A model generated the notes under the pieces. The model did not search any database and was not told the origin of the DNA. It saw nothing but the letters and a program-made list of their open reading frames with translations. This document shows positions 10,142-27,717 of a stretch of DNA of 46,036 nt, one piece after another (positions within the stretch are counted from its first letter, which is position 1; every line of letters begins with the position of its first letter). Origin of the DNA: Muribaculaceae bacterium (GTDB lineage Bacteria; Bacteroidota; Bacteroidia; Bacteroidales; Muribaculaceae). The stretch spans positions 1 to 46,036 of the forward strand of contig JAGANS010000085.1 in assembly GCA_017624155.1 (NCBI GenBank), read 5' to 3'. A program made the translations under genes and the position numbers.

Positions 10142-10723
10142 ATGGTAATACTTGCATCCAATTCGCCGCGGAGGCGCGAATTGCTTAAAATGATTATCCC
10201 GGAATTTACAATCGCTTCTGGAAAAGATGTCGAAGAGATTTATCCTGCCGATCTCGAGCCTGAAAAAGTCCCCGAATTTCTGTCGCGACTTAAGGCTGCG
10301 GCATATCTTGACGATCTGAAATCTGACGATATTCTTATTACCGCCGATACCGTTGTGATTCTTGGCCGGGAAATTCTCGGCAAGCCGCACAGCCGTGAGG
10401 ATGCCCTTACGATGCTCGGCAAGATGCAGGCTCGCACACATACGGTCGTCACCGGCGTCACGCTCAGTTTTGCAGACGGCCGCTCGGTTTCATTCTCCCA
10501 AAAGACCGAGGTGGATTTTGACAGCCTCAGCGAGAAGGAGATTGAATATTACGTCGACACATACAAGCCCTATGATAAGGCAGGCGCCTACGGCATACAG
10601 GAATGGATAGGGGCTGCTGCAATTATCGGTATCCGCGGCAGTTTTTATAATGTAATGGGGCTGCCTGTACATGCCTTGTATCTTGCATTGAAAGACTGTG
10701 GAATCAATATTGCAGATAAATGA
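10142..10723 (+). CDS. maf: Maf family nucleoside triphosphate pyrophosphatase
   Basis: The 193-residue protein carries the Maf signature LASNSPRRRELLKM (residues 4-17) and the catalytic region ITADTVVILGREILGKP (about 61-77) with the general-base Asp. Maf/YhdE-type enzymes hydrolyse dTTP, UTP or modified nucleotides to monophosphates, a house-cleaning role. QEWIGAAAIIGIRGSFYNVMGLPVHAL at the C-terminus is also typical. It is the last gene of the plus-strand run; its final 20 bases overlap the 3' end of the MBOAT gene on the opposite strand, so the two transcripts must converge. Confidence 0.93.
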   Translation: MVILASNSPRRRELLKMIIPEFTIASGKDVEEIYPADLEPEKVPEFLSRLKAAAYLDDLKSDDILITADTVVILGREILGKPHSREDALTMLGKMQARTHTVVTGVTLSFADGRSVSFSQKTEVDFDSLSEKEIEYYVDTYKPYDKAGAYGIQEWIGAAAIIGIRGSFYNVMGLPVHALYLALKDCGINIADK

Positions 10724-12185
10724 ACGGCACCAGATCGGATGATCTTGCCTGAATCACAAAAAACAGTACGATAGCAAGGAGCATCCCCTGGAATATCATC
10801 GGGGTGGCGATATATGCCTCGGTGAGTCCTGTTGACCAGCTGCGCGGGGTATAGTGCATGAGCAGAGCGGCTGCGATGGCCACAACTATCATCATATAGC
10901 TTTCTATGAACTGCGGGGCGACCGAAGCATGGAAATCGTTGAATATCTGTGTGCCAATAGCCTGCAAAGTATCGAGCGAATCGGCACGGAATATGGCGAA
11001 GCCGATAACCACGAGCGTGAAGGTGACGGCAGTGTTAATCACTCGCAATCCGAATGTGCCCCTGATAGGCTCGGGTATGCGCCAGATGCCTTTAAATGCT
11101 TTATGCACTGCAAGCAGCAGTCCGTGGTAGGCACCCCACAGCAGATACATCCATCCGGCGCCGTGCCACAGGCCGCCGATGACCATGGTAAGGAAGTTGT
11201 TGAGGTATGTTCGGGCCTTGCCATGGCGCGAGCCTCCCAGTGGTATGTATAGGTAATCGCGAAGCCATGTTGACAGCGAGATATGCCAGCGGCGCCAGAA
11301 TTCCTGAGGATTCTGAGCCTTGAACGGAGCCCGGAAATTATCCTTGAAGCGATAACCCATCAGCAAGGCTATGCCGATAGCCATGTCGGAATATCCTGAG
11401 AAGTCGCAGTATAGCTGTATGGTAAATCCTATGCAGCCCATCACATTTTCGAAGCCTGAGTAGAGCGCCGGATTATCGAACACTCGGTTGACAAAGTTGC
11501 CGGAGATGTAATCTGCTACTATTACCTTTTTGATAAGGCCGGTCATGATCAGGAACAGTCCTTCTCCTACCATTTCCTTGCTTGCCGACGGATAGCACTT
11601 GATTTGGGGGAGCATGTCTTTTGCCCTGACTACCGGACCTGCGAGCAGGGGCGGGAAGAAGGTGAGAAAGAACGTGTAATGAAGCAAATTCCTCTCGGCC
11701 TCTATTTCTCTGCGATAAATATCGACAATATAGCTTATAGATCGGAATGTGAAAAACGATATGCCCGCCGGTAATATGATGTCGAGAGTGTCGAAATCGT
11801 GGTGAGTGAGTTCGGCCCAGGTGCTTGCGAGCAGGTTGAAATACTTGAAATAGACAAGCATCCCGATGTTGACGCATACATTCAGTGCAACGATCATTCG
11901 TCGTACCATATTATTCGTTGAATGTTGCATCCACAGGCCGAGCAGATAATCACTTATGCATACCCCCAGTAGGATAAAACAACATTCAGCACTCGACTTG
12001 TAATAAAAATAGAGCGAGAACAGGATTGTCACCGCCATTTTGAGCGTATGACGGTTTCGCAGCCCCTCATATAAGGCCATGAAGAGCACAAAAAGGATAA
12101 GGAACAAGCCCGTATTGAACAATAGCGGCGCCTTGGGGTCATAGAGCAGTTGACTGCTTATTTCGGAGAGATCGGGCAAAGTCAT
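10704..12185 (-). CDS. MBOAT family membrane O-acyltransferase (AlgI/DltB/PatA type)
   Basis: The 493-residue polytopic protein has about ten to twelve membrane segments and the MBOAT core: FCDFSGYSDMAIG (about 259-271), NPQEFWRRWHISLSTWLRDYLYIPLGG (292-318, conserved His301) and GGLWHGAGWMYLLWGAYHG (337-355, catalytic His341). MBOAT enzymes of this branch move an acetyl group across the membrane for O-acetylation of alginate, peptidoglycan or other glycans. Two SGNH-hydrolase-like proteins encoded just upstream, each overlapping the next by 4 bases, are the probable extracytoplasmic acetyl-transferring partners, as in AlgI-AlgJ/X or PatA-PatB. The glycan is not identifiable from sequence; peptidoglycan or a surface polysaccharide are both possible. 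Confidence 0.93.
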   Translation of the reverse strand: MTLPDLSEISSQLLYDPKAPLLFNTGLFLILFVLFMALYEGLRNRHTLKMAVTILFSLYFYYKSSAECCFILLGVCISDYLLGLWMQHSTNNMVRRMIVALNVCVNIGMLVYFKYFNLLASTWAELTHHDFDTLDIILPAGISFFTFRSISYIVDIYRREIEAERNLLHYTFFLTFFPPLLAGPVVRAKDMLPQIKCYPSASKEMVGEGLFLIMTGLIKKVIVADYISGNFVNRVFDNPALYSGFENVMGCIGFTIQLYCDFSGYSDMAIGIALLMGYRFKDNFRAPFKAQNPQEFWRRWHISLSTWLRDYLYIPLGGSRHGKARTYLNNFLTMVIGGLWHGAGWMYLLWGAYHGLLLAVHKAFKGIWRIPEPIRGTFGLRVINTAVTFTLVVIGFAIFRADSLDTLQAIGTQIFNDFHASVAPQFIESYMMIVVAIAAALLMHYTPRSWSTGLTEAYIATPMIFQGMLLAIVLFFVIQARSSDLVPFIYLQY

Positions 12186-13417
12186 TTTTCTGAATTATTA
12201 AGAGCCTCCTCAATAGCTTCGGTGATGAGATGGCCCTGAAGGGTGTAGCCGGACCGTGTGAGGTGAATGCGGTCGGTGTTGAGATACTTGTCGCGCAGCC
12301 ATTTGTTCGAGCTGCCGGTTCCGCCTGCTACTTCATAGAAGTCGTAGCATGGAATCCCCTCGGTACGGGCAAATCCCTCGATCACATCGCGCAGACGCTT
12401 TACATTCTGATTGACACTGAATGATGCTCTGCGGCGGCGACGGCGTGTGCGGCGACGCTGACATTCCGACGGAGTGGTAATAAGAAGTTTCGCTCCGGGA
12501 CAAGCGCGGCGCAGGTCATCGACGAGGATCTTCATCGAGGTGCGCATTTCATCGTTTGTAGTAGTGTTGAATGCCTCGTTGGTACCCAGCGACAGGATGA
12601 TCAGTGCCGGATCGAAGAGGGCGATATCATTCGCAAAACCATCAACTCCGTTATATGTGCCATACGTGGCTCCGTTGTTGCCGATAACGTGATATGCAAG
12701 TCCTGTATGTCCGTTTATAAGATTGATCCCGTGAACAACACAGTTGTCGCCGTTGGTAAGGTTGATAGATGTCTGTATAGCGGGCCCGTTGAGCTTGAGT
12801 TGTACAATACCGGGTAAGGAATAGTCGCTTATATCATTAGCATCGCCGACTATCTCGGGGGTATTACCTGAATAATATATAGCCAGCGAATCGAACGGTT
12901 CACCCGCGCTGATGCACAGATCGAAATCATTGGCCTGCGGGCTGATGCCGATGCCTGTAAAGCCCATCTCGATAGGCCAGGGGGTCTTGAGCAGTCGTGC
13001 CTGAGTCATGGGAACAGACGATGTGATTGTATAGTCGACCGGTTCATTGGTGCCGGCGAGCTTGAAGGGGACTATCAGCGATCGGCCGGCCGAACCATAG
13101 TGCTCGCCAAGTCGTGTACGTGTGACGGCAGTCCCCATGTCGGCCTGCAGGTGGGAGTCGCCTATATGGACAATGGTGACACGCGAGGTATCAGAGCCGT
13201 TGAGTTTTTTTGCGAGATCGCTCCAGTCATCACCGTTCATATCGATGTGGTTGGCGCGGAGATTAACGTAGCGCGGATAGTCGATTTTAGGAGCGACATA
13301 TACCTCGCGTTTGGTAGTCTCCATATCGGGATTTTCGCGTAATTGCGATTGTGAATTATCTTGGGCCGAGGCTGCTGAGAACGCCAGCAAGGCGATTATT
13401 GCGATTGAGTGTTTCAT
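12182..13417 (-). CDS. Exported SGNH/GDSL-type hydrolase or acetyltransferase, with arginine-rich insert
   Basis: The 411-residue protein has a signal peptide (about 1-19, ending ASAQDN). SGNH blocks are visible: IGDSHLQAD (85-93, nucleophile Ser88), the GTNE block III (278-281) and DRIHL block V (382-386, catalytic Asp382 and His385). SGNH proteins next to MBOATs usually transfer acetyl groups to, or remove them from, a glycan outside the inner membrane. Residues 321-330 contain nine arginines in ten, followed by SFSVNQN, just after block III; this strongly basic loop could bind an anionic glycan. The gene overlaps both neighbours by 4 bases (ATGA), which suggests fixed stoichiometry. Confidence 0.9.
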   Translation of the reverse strand: MKHSIAIIALLAFSAASAQDNSQSQLRENPDMETTKREVYVAPKIDYPRYVNLRANHIDMNGDDWSDLAKKLNGSDTSRVTIVHIGDSHLQADMGTAVTRTRLGEHYGSAGRSLIVPFKLAGTNEPVDYTITSSVPMTQARLLKTPWPIEMGFTGIGISPQANDFDLCISAGEPFDSLAIYYSGNTPEIVGDANDISDYSLPGIVQLKLNGPAIQTSINLTNGDNCVVHGINLINGHTGLAYHVIGNNGATYGTYNGVDGFANDIALFDPALIILSLGTNEAFNTTTNDEMRTSMKILVDDLRRACPGAKLLITTPSECQRRRTRRRRRRASFSVNQNVKRLRDVIEGFARTEGIPCYDFYEVAGGTGSSNKWLRDKYLNTDRIHLTRSGYTLQGHLITEAIEEALNNSEK

Positions 13418-14793
13418 TGCAGGGTGGTATATAATGATTTGAGGAAGATGTCGGCAAGTTCTTTGCCGCCGTGATGATTCAAATGAACGTAATCGGCATT
13501 GACGAGCTTGCGGGCATGCCAGTCGACAGCCGCGCCGTCGCCGCCCATTGCGGCACGCGTATCATAGAAGAGGGAACCGGTGATCCGGGCAGTCTCACGC
13601 TGTGCTTTGATAAGCGCCGGTAATGTGGGCATGGACAGGTATTGTGTACCTTGTTTTATAGCACGGTCTCCGACACCGAGCAGGAGTATCACGGCTTGTG
13701 GATAGAGTGTCTTGATATTATTGACTACGTCGGTCATGGCGCGGCCATAGGCAGTATAGTCTGTCTGTTCGACTGATACCACATTCAGCCCGAATTCAAG
13801 AATTATCACGTCGTAATCGATCCACCGACGCATCTGCGCGGTTGTTGTGGCGTCGAGACGGCGGTGGCTCAGTCCGCTGTTTCCGCGCAGCGATATGTCG
13901 TCAAGCACAATTCCGGCGTTACCTTCAAGCCATACGCCCAACACCTTAAGATCGGGAACATCGGTCGTTATGCTGATATCCGCTGTGGGTGCGTCAAGGC
14001 TGACGGCTTGCAGGTCGTCCGATGCTCCGACCGGGAAACTCCGTGCCTGTGTGTCAGAGCCGGAGAGGGTGATTGTACCCTGCGAGGCAGATTTGAACAA
14101 GACGGTTGTACTTGTCCATGATGTGACATGCGCAGGCTTGGCGCTGCCCTTGTAGCGTGTCATGGCGCCTTCGCCGGCAGTATGGTAGTGCCCAAGGATT
14201 GTGCGCAGCGGATCCGAAGCCTCCATTTTACGTATCTCTGTTTCCTCCCAGCCGGAACACGACTGATTCACCGACCCTCGGAAGCCGGGGAATTGGCTGA
14301 ATGCACCGATATATCCAACACCGGAGCCGCCGAACCGTTCCTGCAAGCCGGCACGTATGTCCTGAGCCAGAATATCGCCTTCGATATATGAATCACCGAC
14401 CATGGCGATACGGACTTTCCGATTTCCACTCTGGCTTAGAATCTCCGAGAGACGGGTTATCCCTTTTCCGGAGGGGTCATAATCCTCTATCAGAACGCTG
14501 CCATCGCGAACAGGCGCAGTAAAGTCGTAAGGTACAGGCGGCAGTGTGTCGGCTTTTTCGGCATGCTCGCTCACTGTATCGGTCTGCGGCTCCGATAAAA
14601 GAGCCACCAGCTCCGGGTCGAGATTGTCGGACGTCGCATTATCATAGGTATGCGTAGCCGGTAATACATCGCCCAGGAGGTTGAAATCCTTGAGACGACC
14701 GCCGGTCCACTTGCTCCAGGGACACACCGACAGCACTGTCAGGAAAGCCAGTGCCGAGAATATGATAATGAACAGTCTTAGAGGATTGCGCAT
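13414..14793 (-). CDS. Membrane-anchored SGNH/GDSL-type hydrolase or acetyltransferase
   Basis: The 459-residue protein has an N-terminal membrane anchor or uncleaved signal (about 7-24), a low-complexity acidic linker (about 45-95) and an SGNH domain from about 105. Block I is MVGDSYIEGD (131-140, nucleophile Ser135) and block V is ADYVHLNHHGG (Asp434 and His437). The region between holds a beta-sandwich-like insertion typical of the larger GDSL proteins paired with MBOATs. It is the first of the three O-acetylation genes, starting 9 bases after menF. It is a divergent paralogue of the next gene rather than a recent duplicate, so the two may act as transferase and esterase; that split is inference. 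Confidence 0.88.
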   Translation of the reverse strand: MRNPLRLFIIIFSALAFLTVLSVCPWSKWTGGRLKDFNLLGDVLPATHTYDNATSDNLDPELVALLSEPQTDTVSEHAEKADTLPPVPYDFTAPVRDGSVLIEDYDPSGKGITRLSEILSQSGNRKVRIAMVGDSYIEGDILAQDIRAGLQERFGGSGVGYIGAFSQFPGFRGSVNQSCSGWEETEIRKMEASDPLRTILGHYHTAGEGAMTRYKGSAKPAHVTSWTSTTVLFKSASQGTITLSGSDTQARSFPVGASDDLQAVSLDAPTADISITTDVPDLKVLGVWLEGNAGIVLDDISLRGNSGLSHRRLDATTTAQMRRWIDYDVIILEFGLNVVSVEQTDYTAYGRAMTDVVNNIKTLYPQAVILLLGVGDRAIKQGTQYLSMPTLPALIKAQRETARITGSLFYDTRAAMGGDGAAVDWHARKLVNADYVHLNHHGGKELADIFLKSLYTTLQ

Positions 14794-25543: not shown

Positions 25544-26980
25544 ATGGAAACAACAGTATTAAAGGAGCTTTACACAAATTATTGCGGCTCGGAACCTGAA
25601 AAAATCGACGAGTTGCCATCTTCGGGCAGCAACCGTCGTTATTTCCGTATTACCGGAGATGGCGGCAGCATTATCGGCGTGCTTGGCAACAATCTTCAGG
25701 AAAATGAGGCTTTTCTTGATTTCGACCGCCAGTTCATGGAAAAAGCGCTGCCGGTCCCTGAGGTGCTTGCTGTAAGTCCTGACCACATGGCATATCTGCA
25801 GGTTGACCTTGGTGATACCCTCCTGTTCAATGCAATAGAAAAGGGCAGACTTACCCATGTGTTTTCACCCATGGAGAAGCAGCTGCTCGAACAGACGATG
25901 CGCCGGTTGCCGGATTTCCAGTTTGCCGCTTCCAACGATCAATTCGATTTCTCGAAGTGTTTCCCGGCCAAGGAATTTGACCGTCGGTCCATTATGTGGG
26001 ACCTCAACTATTTCAAATATTGCTTCCTGAAAGCAACCGGGCTTGAATTTGAGGAAAACCTGCTTGAGGATGATTTCAACCGCCTTGCCGATACACTGCT
26101 TAAAGCCGACTGCGACACATTCATGTATCGCGATTTCCAGTCGCGCAATGTAATGATCCACAACGGCGAGCCGTGGTTCATTGATTTCCAGGGCGGACGC
26201 AAGGGCCCGTGCCAATATGATGTAGCATCCTTCCTGTGGCAGGCCAAGGCCAATTTCTCATCGGAGTTGCGCAAGGAACTGATAGATGAATATATCCGCT
26301 CGGCCCGGCGTTATCGCGACATAGACAAAGCTCATTTCATGGACACATTGCGGCAGTTTGTCCTGTTCCGGACGATGCAGGTGCTGGGTGCATACGGCTT
26401 CAGAGGGTATTTTGAAAAGAAGCCGCACTTCATGCAGAGCGTACCCTTTGCGATCGCCAATCTGCGGGCGCTGCTTGCCGAAAAGCCATTTTATGAATAT
26501 CCTTATCTACAGGAACTGCTGCAGCGGCTTGTCGACCTTAAGCAATTTACATCCGACCTTGAGAAGCGTCAGCTCACAGTGCGCGTAATCAGCTTCGCTT
26601 ACAAGAAAGGTATTCCATACGATCCGACGGGCAACGGCGGCGGCTTTGTATTCGATTGCAGAGCAGTGAACAATCCCGGCAAATACGACCGCTACAAACC
26701 GTTTACCGGGCTCGACCGTCAGGTCATCGATTTTCTTGAAGCTGACGGAGAGGTCTTCGATTTCCTTGAGCACTGTTATGCCCTCGTGGATGCTGCCACA
26801 CGTCGATATATCGACCGCGGCTTCACAAACCTATATGTGGCCTTTGGCTGCACAGGTGGCCAGCACCGCTCGGTCTATTGCGCCCAGCACATGGCCGAGC
26901 ATCTTAACAAGCTCTTCAATGTCAAGGTAGAACTCATCCACCGTGAGCAGGATATAGAACAGTTGTTTCCGCGCCGATGA
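25544..26980 (+). CDS. Sugar-1-kinase-like phosphotransferase fused to a RapZ C-terminal domain
   Basis: The 478-residue protein (ATG 25544) has two parts. Residues 1-330 form an aminoglycoside-phosphotransferase-type kinase resembling AmgK: SSGSNRRYFRI (26-36) as nucleotide loop, MYRDFQSRNVMIHN (194-207) as catalytic loop and FIDFQGG (212-218) as metal-binding motif. Residues 344-470 match the C-terminal domain of RapZ: VISFAYKKGIP, FVFDCRAVNNP, KPFTGLDRQV and FGCTGGQHRSVYCAQ (434-448), the loop that in E. coli RapZ binds glucosamine-6-phosphate. The RapZ P-loop domain is absent. AmgK phosphorylates MurNAc or GlcNAc at C1, and the next gene, overlapping by 4 bases, is MurU-like, so peptidoglycan-sugar recycling is likely. 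Control of the kinase by an amino-sugar phosphate is my inference. Confidence 0.88.
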   Translation: METTVLKELYTNYCGSEPEKIDELPSSGSNRRYFRITGDGGSIIGVLGNNLQENEAFLDFDRQFMEKALPVPEVLAVSPDHMAYLQVDLGDTLLFNAIEKGRLTHVFSPMEKQLLEQTMRRLPDFQFAASNDQFDFSKCFPAKEFDRRSIMWDLNYFKYCFLKATGLEFEENLLEDDFNRLADTLLKADCDTFMYRDFQSRNVMIHNGEPWFIDFQGGRKGPCQYDVASFLWQAKANFSSELRKELIDEYIRSARRYRDIDKAHFMDTLRQFVLFRTMQVLGAYGFRGYFEKKPHFMQSVPFAIANLRALLAEKPFYEYPYLQELLQRLVDLKQFTSDLEKRQLTVRVISFAYKKGIPYDPTGNGGGFVFDCRAVNNPGKYDRYKPFTGLDRQVIDFLEADGEVFDFLEHCYALVDAATRRYIDRGFTNLYVAFGCTGGQHRSVYCAQHMAEHLNKLFNVKVELIHREQDIEQLFPRR

Positions 26981-27717
26981 AAGCCCTGATATTCGCCGCC
27001 GGCATCGGCAGCCGCCTGAAGCCATGGACCGACTCGCACCCCAAAGCACTTGTCGAAGTCGGTGGCAAGCCTATGCTCGGCAGGGTGATTGACAATATTA
27101 TTGCTGCAGGGATTTCCGACATTATTATCAATGTCCATCATTTCGCCGGCCAGATTGTGGATTATATCAACAATACTGAGTTCAAGGCACGTATCACAAT
27201 AAGCGACGAAACTGATTTGCTGCTTGATACAGGCGGAGGGTTGCGCAAGGTCCTTACTATGCTCGGAAACGAACCGGTGCTGATCCATAACGCCGACATA
27301 CTCACGACATTCGACCTTAAAAAGATTATCTACCGGCAGGCACGCAGCGGTGCGGATGCCACCTTGCTCACACAGGAACGCGACAGTTCGCGTCGCCTTG
27401 TGTTCGACCGTGACGACCGTCTGCGCGGATGGACAAACCTTAATACCGGAGAAGTGAAGCCGGCAGGACTTGCGATTACAGCCGGCATGAAACTCGAATC
27501 TTTTGATGGCATACATATAGTCGATTCGTCTATGTATGATTCGCTGAAAAAGTTTCGTGGGGCCGGCAAGCCGTTTTCCATCATTGATTTTTATCTCGCC
27601 ATGTGTCCCGACTGGAAGATAATATCAATGTCGCTGCCTGATGATGACCACTGGTTTGATGTAGGGAAACCTGAGACACTCCAACGAGCAAGAAACTTCT
27701 ACTCGAATTCCAAATAA
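26977..27717 (+). CDS. MurU-like sugar-1-phosphate nucleotidyltransferase
   Basis: The 246-residue protein has the nucleotidyltransferase fold with LIFAAGIGSRLKPWTDSHPKAL (residues 4-25), the NTP-binding GxGxRxxPxT-like loop, then VGGKPMLGRVIDNI. NADI at about 106-109 provides the metal-binding Asp, and a second Asp lies in DDDHWFDVGKPE near the C-terminus. It closely follows (ATGA overlap) a sugar-1-kinase-like gene, the AmgK-MurU order of Pseudomonas, where MurU makes UDP-MurNAc from MurNAc-1-phosphate. Mannose- or glucose-1-phosphate nucleotidyltransferase activity is an alternative, since this family is hard to tell apart by sequence. pyrK follows after 4 bases. Confidence 0.85.
   Translation: MKALIFAAGIGSRLKPWTDSHPKALVEVGGKPMLGRVIDNIIAAGISDIIINVHHFAGQIVDYINNTEFKARITISDETDLLLDTGGGLRKVLTMLGNEPVLIHNADILTTFDLKKIIYRQARSGADATLLTQERDSSRRLVFDRDDRLRGWTNLNTGEVKPAGLAITAGMKLESFDGIHIVDSSMYDSLKKFRGAGKPFSIIDFYLAMCPDWKIISMSLPDDDHWFDVGKPETLQRARNFYSNSK

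Follow-up and report, generated by a model that had tools for sequence, protein, structure and literature searches.

The window analysed here, a stretch of 46,036 nucleotides from a contig of a Muribaculaceae bacterium, carries two overlapping genes that would encode a three-part MurNAc salvage module leading to UDP-MurNAc. The parts are an AmgK-like 1-kinase, the C-terminal domain of RapZ (RapZ_C) and a MurU-like uridylyltransferase. AmgK and MurU are known to yield UDP-MurNAc by recycling. RapZ_C would be the phosphosugar-handling part of this module. Its C-x5-R-S loop would remove the phosphate from a hexosamine 6-phosphate, above all MurNAc-6-phosphate, and thereby let the kinase work at C1. 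This is the step that the unrelated HAD enzyme MupP performs in Pseudomonas. For RapZ_C itself, we infer the catalysis, the substrate and the direction of the reaction. A salvage module of these parts is very probable if the phosphatase claim is left aside. The whole proposal, in which RapZ_C is the hexosamine-6-phosphate phosphatase doing the MupP step, is tentative and falls somewhat short of an even chance. The RapZ fold of the domain, its intact loop, the near-exact co-occurrence of the three parts, their gene order and their fusions are direct observations.

The first gene (25544..26980, on the forward strand like all features of the pair) encodes a 478 aa protein whose structural model has a pLDDT of 90.3. 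It is a single frame that joins an AmgK-like kinase to RapZ_C and lacks the RapZ P-loop domain, which confirms what the preliminary description of this DNA had reported. The APH-type kinase domain occupies residues 23-257 (25610..26314). Within its catalytic loop YRDFQSRN (residues 195-202, 26126..26149), R196, D197 and N202 are invariant in alignments A1 and A3, as are D214 and Q216 within the metal-binding motif IDFQGG (residues 213-218, 26180..26197). Domain search, alignments and structure comparison all give an APH fold with the catalytic Asp/Asn and the metal Asp. Among 114 kinase ORFs, in which one place is counted twice (L003/L123), an RD-x4-N-type catalytic motif is found in 113 and an I/L/V-D-F/Y-Q metal motif in all 114. 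Scores against the two NCBIfam AmgK equivalog models are 61.5 bits (cut-off 550) and 34.9 bits (cut-off 500), and the kinase is called AmgK-like because it lies below both. It is a probable cell-wall amino-sugar 1-kinase. Its identity to the N-acetylhexosamine 1-kinase NahK is 13%, and we know of no RapZ_C and no MurU linkage for that enzyme.

RapZ_C spans residues 345-469 (26576..26950) and matches Pfam family PF22740 (114.6 bits; cut-off 27). Structure comparison agrees with this assignment and assigns the RapZ fold, not the HAD fold; with the whole fusion as the query, the 50 matches listed are all kinases and RapZ chains. A GNGGG loop (residues 363-367, 26630..26644), absent from E. coli RapZ, is inserted just before the VFD strand. 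The C-x5-R-S phosphate-binding loop CTGGQHRS (residues 436-443, 26849..26872) has a Cys and an Arg that are invariant across 113 alignment rows. The N-terminal P-loop (Walker) domain, PF03668, was found neither in the fused protein nor in its own genome, nor in any of the 45 genomes tested.

The second gene (26977..27717) overlaps the first by ATGA, again as originally described, and encodes a sugar-1-phosphate uridylyltransferase of 246 aa. Its product matches an NCBIfam MurU model (E 8e-34) and is called MurU-like because it does not reach the NCBIfam equivalog cut-offs (117.1 of 370 bits and 114.8 of 250 bits). The nearest solved structures by profile, the top two of nine, are 4y7t, which we take to be MurU of Pseudomonas putida, and 8hhd, which was deposited as an N-acetylmuramate alpha-1-phosphate uridylyltransferase. 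Elsewhere in the window, at 10704-14793, an MBOAT acyltransferase gene adjoins a gene of the GDSL-lipase type and another with a sub-threshold GDSL match. This arrangement presumably resembles polysaccharide or peptidoglycan O-acetylation sets.

The fusion beside a MurU-like gene recurs across the phylum and is not confined to the window genome. In a sample of 296 genomes spread evenly over the phylum, RapZ_C is present in 36. A strong match to the kinase subfamily (E 1e-75 or better, a line set after the gap to weak matches of 6e-42 to 5e-26 was seen) occurs in 36 of 36 carriers and in one of the 260 non-carriers (G009). A strong match to the MurU subfamily (E 5e-54 or better, likewise set after the gap to weak matches of 2e-43 to 6e-41 was seen) occurs in 36 of 36 carriers, with one internal stop in each of the matches of G216 and G271, and in two non-carriers (G009 and G231). 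At the searched limits of 1e-25 for the kinase and 1e-40 for MurU, 58 and 15 further genomes match, respectively, all with family code f18. Because RapZ_C, kinase and MurU co-occur near-exactly, a role in MurNAc salvage is likely. The one sampled genome with a strong kinase and a strong MurU match that lacks RapZ_C, G009 (L120 6090-7801), also lacks AnmK and MurQ.

Of the 36 genomes, 27 have RapZ_C joined to the kinase, and the other nine encode it on its own in a gene of 133-139 aa. In 21 of the 27 fusions, MurU lies on the same strand inside the 1.5 kb flank, and the order kinase-RapZ_C-MurU is found in seven of the nine genomes with a separate gene; in G180 and G271 all three genes are apart. 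The fusion also occurs in Bacteroides, Parabacteroides, Phocaeicola and Prevotella-group genomes and in MAGs labelled Calditrichia, Ignavibacteriales and Elusimicrobia. In a quick tree of the 36 RapZ_C domains, which has few well-supported branches, fused and separate states require two changes, so splitting or joining of RapZ_C seems rare. All three domains share one 760 aa ORF in a Bacteroidaceae MAG (L081, 7992-10274). At another locus (L014, 1489-1497), a single in-frame TAA parts the kinase from RapZ_C and an ATG follows two codons on; a congener of that genome (G124) retains the fusion.

Alignment with E. coli RapZ (sequence from NC_000913) shows what the relatives keep and lose. Cys247, Thr248, Gly249, His252, Arg253 and Ser254 (E. 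coli numbering) are invariant in 113 of 113 rows, which represent 112 distinct sequences with the window counted twice, and this invariance is partly built in because 80 loci were retrieved with conserved-loop patterns. The loop consensus is CTGG[Q/R]HRS. Sequences found by profile, 36 in number, agree with the loop invariance except for one Q-to-R change. ORF calling gave no single fused ORF at three of the 80 loci (L052, L068 and L102). The pocket for GlcN6P or sulphate, as judged from sequence, keeps four of its five residues (H190, T248, G249, H252 and R253) in the 113 rows, and the exception is His190, which is Gly in every row (Gly379 of the fused protein). Trp191 is replaced by Arg or Lys and once by Gln. 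F181 and D182 of the VFD strand are invariant. The GGG of the insertion, which is preceded by N or H, is present in 113 of 113 rows and in 36 of 36 profile-found sequences, and it is gapped in E. coli RapZ. Unlike E. coli RapZ, these proteins have no N-terminal P-loop domain and no basic RNA-binding tail. The last 12 residues carry a net charge of +4 in E. coli, against a median of 0 in 111 relatives (the triple fusion L081 is omitted from the 112 sequences), only three of which reach +3 or more. In an excerpt of PMC7073468, this basic tail is described as limited to Enterobacteriaceae. The E. coli GlcN6P site is only partly recovered here, in that the phosphate loop and most pocket residues are kept but His190 is Gly throughout. 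This substitution weakens a direct transfer of GlcN6P specificity, but because the phosphate loop remains it does not fully refute the early interpretation.

The distribution of AnmK and MurQ places RapZ_C in a metabolic context. Scored by PF03702 at E 1e-20 and by TIGR00274 at E 1e-30, AnmK is found in 205 and MurQ in 211 of the 296 genomes. The 36 carriers divide into 12 with both enzymes, 12 with AnmK only, five with MurQ only and seven with neither. All 12 genomes that have AnmK and lack MurQ carry RapZ_C; they belong to six family codes (f4, f5, f16, f34, f41 and f47), and half of them come from f5. Conversely, all 181 genomes with AnmK but without RapZ_C have MurQ at E 1e-30, a count that could acquire up to seven exceptions at the curated cut-off, which 204 of the 211 MurQ matches pass. 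The matches below that cut-off include, by their E-values, those of G001, G006, G011, G016 and G086, all of them genomes with AnmK but without RapZ_C. Six genomes outside f18 lack both MurQ and RapZ_C, among them G056, G121, G157, G173 and G288, whose family codes were not established. According to this pattern, each genome with AnmK appears to have a way to use the MurNAc-6-phosphate that AnmK makes, through either MurQ or the module.

Outside f18, which leaves out 60 genomes, AnmK is found in 24 of 36 carriers and 181 of 200 non-carriers. It is also present in five of 16 further carriers, one of them a fragment. AnmK as a universal reason for RapZ_C was rejected, given its absence from 12 of the 36 carriers and 11 of the 16 further ones, and these genomes do not fit directly with a requirement for RapZ_C where the sugar is phosphorylated. 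In f18, 58 genomes have a more distant kinase and lack RapZ_C, AnmK and MurQ. This arrangement fits RapZ_C being needed only where the sugar comes in phosphorylated. At the one f18 locus examined (L124, 4718-7838), the gene order is kinase-MurU-NamZ. NamZ is an exo-muramidase that is expected to release unphosphorylated MurNAc.

The proposal that RapZ_C is a phosphatase is favoured because the phosphate loop is invariant, because genomes with AnmK and without MurQ all carry RapZ_C, and because the order kinase-RapZ_C-MurU is pathway-like in its fused, split and triple-fused forms. By its sequence, CTGGQHRS matches the C-x5-R-S/T loop of Cys-dependent phosphatases. Xanthomonas HpaP, presumably a RapZ homologue, is said in the title of a study to have ATPase and phosphatase activity. 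The resemblance of the RapZ pocket to the loop of Cys phosphatases was pointed out by Khan and Gorke, who suggested that GlcN6P is hydrolysed over time (PMC7199280). In the accessible portion of Islam et al. (PMC9841335), C247S inactivates RapZ and crystals of the RapZ CTD given GlcN6P contain a likely transformed product. An excerpt of PMC7525490 states that YvcJ, the B. subtilis RapZ homologue, has phosphatase activity. Counting against a phosphatase are the 12 of 36 carriers without AnmK, seven of which also lack MurQ; in these seven, the AnmK and MurQ searches revealed no known MurNAc-6-phosphate enzyme. The same MurQ distribution would be expected if an ordinary HAD phosphatase removes the 6-phosphate and the kinase with MurU is enough to take over from MurQ. 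Furthermore, C247 mutants of RapZ also lost RNA binding (PMC9841335, in the part available), so the RapZ cysteine may be structural.

Close behind the phosphatase reading in probability is the idea that RapZ_C is a non-catalytic sensor that raises or lowers kinase activity on binding one of the amino-sugar phosphates GlcN6P, MurNAc-6P and MurNAc-1P, the last being the product. In the fusions it would act in cis, and where it has its own gene in trans. This is the interpretation of the preliminary description with GlmS removed. The E. coli RapZ-CTD alone binds GlcN6P with a KD of 10 nM, an affinity that suits a sensor better than a fast enzyme, and full-length RapZ gave no response to GlcN or Glc6P (both from excerpts of PMC7073468). 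Most pocket residues are retained, and a sensor is compatible with carriers that have or lack AnmK and MurQ. However, His190 is Gly in all rows, and no sugar kinase influenced by a RapZ domain was found in the accessible parts of the literature on RapZ. The separate RapZ_C genes in nine of 36 genomes, two of which (G180 and G271) have it away from kinase and MurU, also speak against a sensor, and they leave an obligatory gating of the kinase in cis unsupported.

The same early interpretation compared the fusion to a protein-level version of GlmS/RapZ feedback without small RNAs. Its association of a 1-kinase-like domain and a RapZ ligand domain with a MurU-like enzyme is supported, but the GlmS analogy is not, because GlmS is missing in several RapZ_C carriers. 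At a limit of E 1e-100, GlmS was not found in the window genome (G000, 87.8% complete) or in G230 (99% complete). In a Tannerella-linked genus (that of G296), RapZ_C is present in 11 of 31 genomes and GlmS was found in none of these 11, for which completeness is not given. GlmS occurs in five of the 20 genomes of this genus without RapZ_C and is missing in 15, and 19 of these 20 have MurA. Although 34 of the 36 carriers sampled across the phylum have GlmS, which counts against dismissing a link, its absence from some carriers means that GlmS regulation cannot be the general reason for RapZ_C. MurA (limit E 1e-60) was not found in seven of these 47 carriers (36 of the phylum sample and 11 of the genus): the window genome, G115, G132, G180, G216, G267 and G337. 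The last of these, an assembly in many contigs, is one of the 11 carriers without GlmS. Carriers without MurA or GlmS are possible MurNAc or amino-sugar auxotrophs. In some of them, including perhaps the window genome, which is incomplete, salvage may be essential for UDP-MurNAc.

Less likely than a phosphatase or a sensor is a structural role, in which RapZ_C uses its VFD strand to bring the kinase into a dimer, as happens in RapZ, or hands MurNAc-1-phosphate from the kinase to MurU. Self-interaction of the RapZ-CTD requires strand residues 179-182, YVFD (PMC5737377, in part), and the invariance of F181 and D182 and the placement of RapZ_C between kinase and MurU in fusions and operons agree with such a role. 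A scaffold would not obviously need the invariant C-x5-R-S loop, however, and RapZ_C is unlinked from both enzymes in the two genomes where all three genes are apart. Finally, the reading of the fused protein as a RapZ-like RNA-binding regulator, which follows the deposited name 'RNase adapter RapZ' on two of four plasmid-collection records covering most of the protein and a match of 106 bits to the RapZ NCBIfam model, is very improbable and was set aside because that score falls short of the 244-bit cut-off and because the P-loop domain and the basic tail are absent.

Among known systems, the module is close to the AnmK-MupP-AmgK-MurU pathway of Pseudomonas, in which an APH-fold 1-kinase likewise adjoins a MurU-type uridylyltransferase. 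Like the AmgK/MurU route of beta- and gammaproteobacteria (PMC5371407, in part), it takes the place of MurQ in some of the genomes. Unlike in the Pseudomonas pathway, RapZ_C is added as a fusion or third gene unrelated to MupP, and the scores of the kinase and of MurU fall well short of the curated cut-offs. Lacking the HAD fold, RapZ_C would be at most an analogue of MupP. Parts of two reports on Tannerella forsythia describe how its AmgK and MurU were expressed in E. coli to allow labelling with MurNAc probes (PMC13041923) and its lack of glmS, glmU, murA and murB (PMC5790795). The window genome is similar in that neither GlmS nor MurA was found. A study of Tannerella forsythia was the only one on AmgK with MurU in Bacteroidetes found in the accessible literature, and a search for RapZ with Bacteroides and phosphotransferase returned, in the sources as available, only a phage-resistance screen, judged by its title. 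No literature was found that joins RapZ with MurNAc through its C-terminal domain, and none among the matches listed joins RapZ/YvcJ with AmgK/MurU.

The kinase and RapZ_C both belong to known Pfam families. As far as our searches show, two findings are new: the almost strict linkage of the three parts and the pattern of AnmK and MurQ. That RapZ_C accompanies recycling enzymes in the sampled relatives suggests that the pathway has a third component so far unrecognised. What the C-terminal pocket of RapZ does is not settled, since it binds GlcN6P, resembles a phosphatase loop and depends on a cysteine that is essential in E. coli. Here the domain is free of the other half of RapZ and of the RNA tail, is tied to a defined sugar pathway and is sometimes encoded by a gene of about 135 aa, so that the choice between sensor and enzyme becomes a simple matter for the bench. 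Some of these proteins bear the name 'RNase adapter RapZ', which would be corrected. The broader claim that RapZ_C, as a cysteine-type hexosamine-6-phosphate phosphatase, supplies the MupP step in this phylum and a few others is slightly more doubtful than the whole proposal given at the outset. If true, the domain with which RapZ senses GlcN6P would be related to an enzyme of peptidoglycan recycling and would have been repurposed. RapZ_C could also supply a missing cell-wall salvage step in the phylum, and some carriers, apparently without MurA, may depend on this route.
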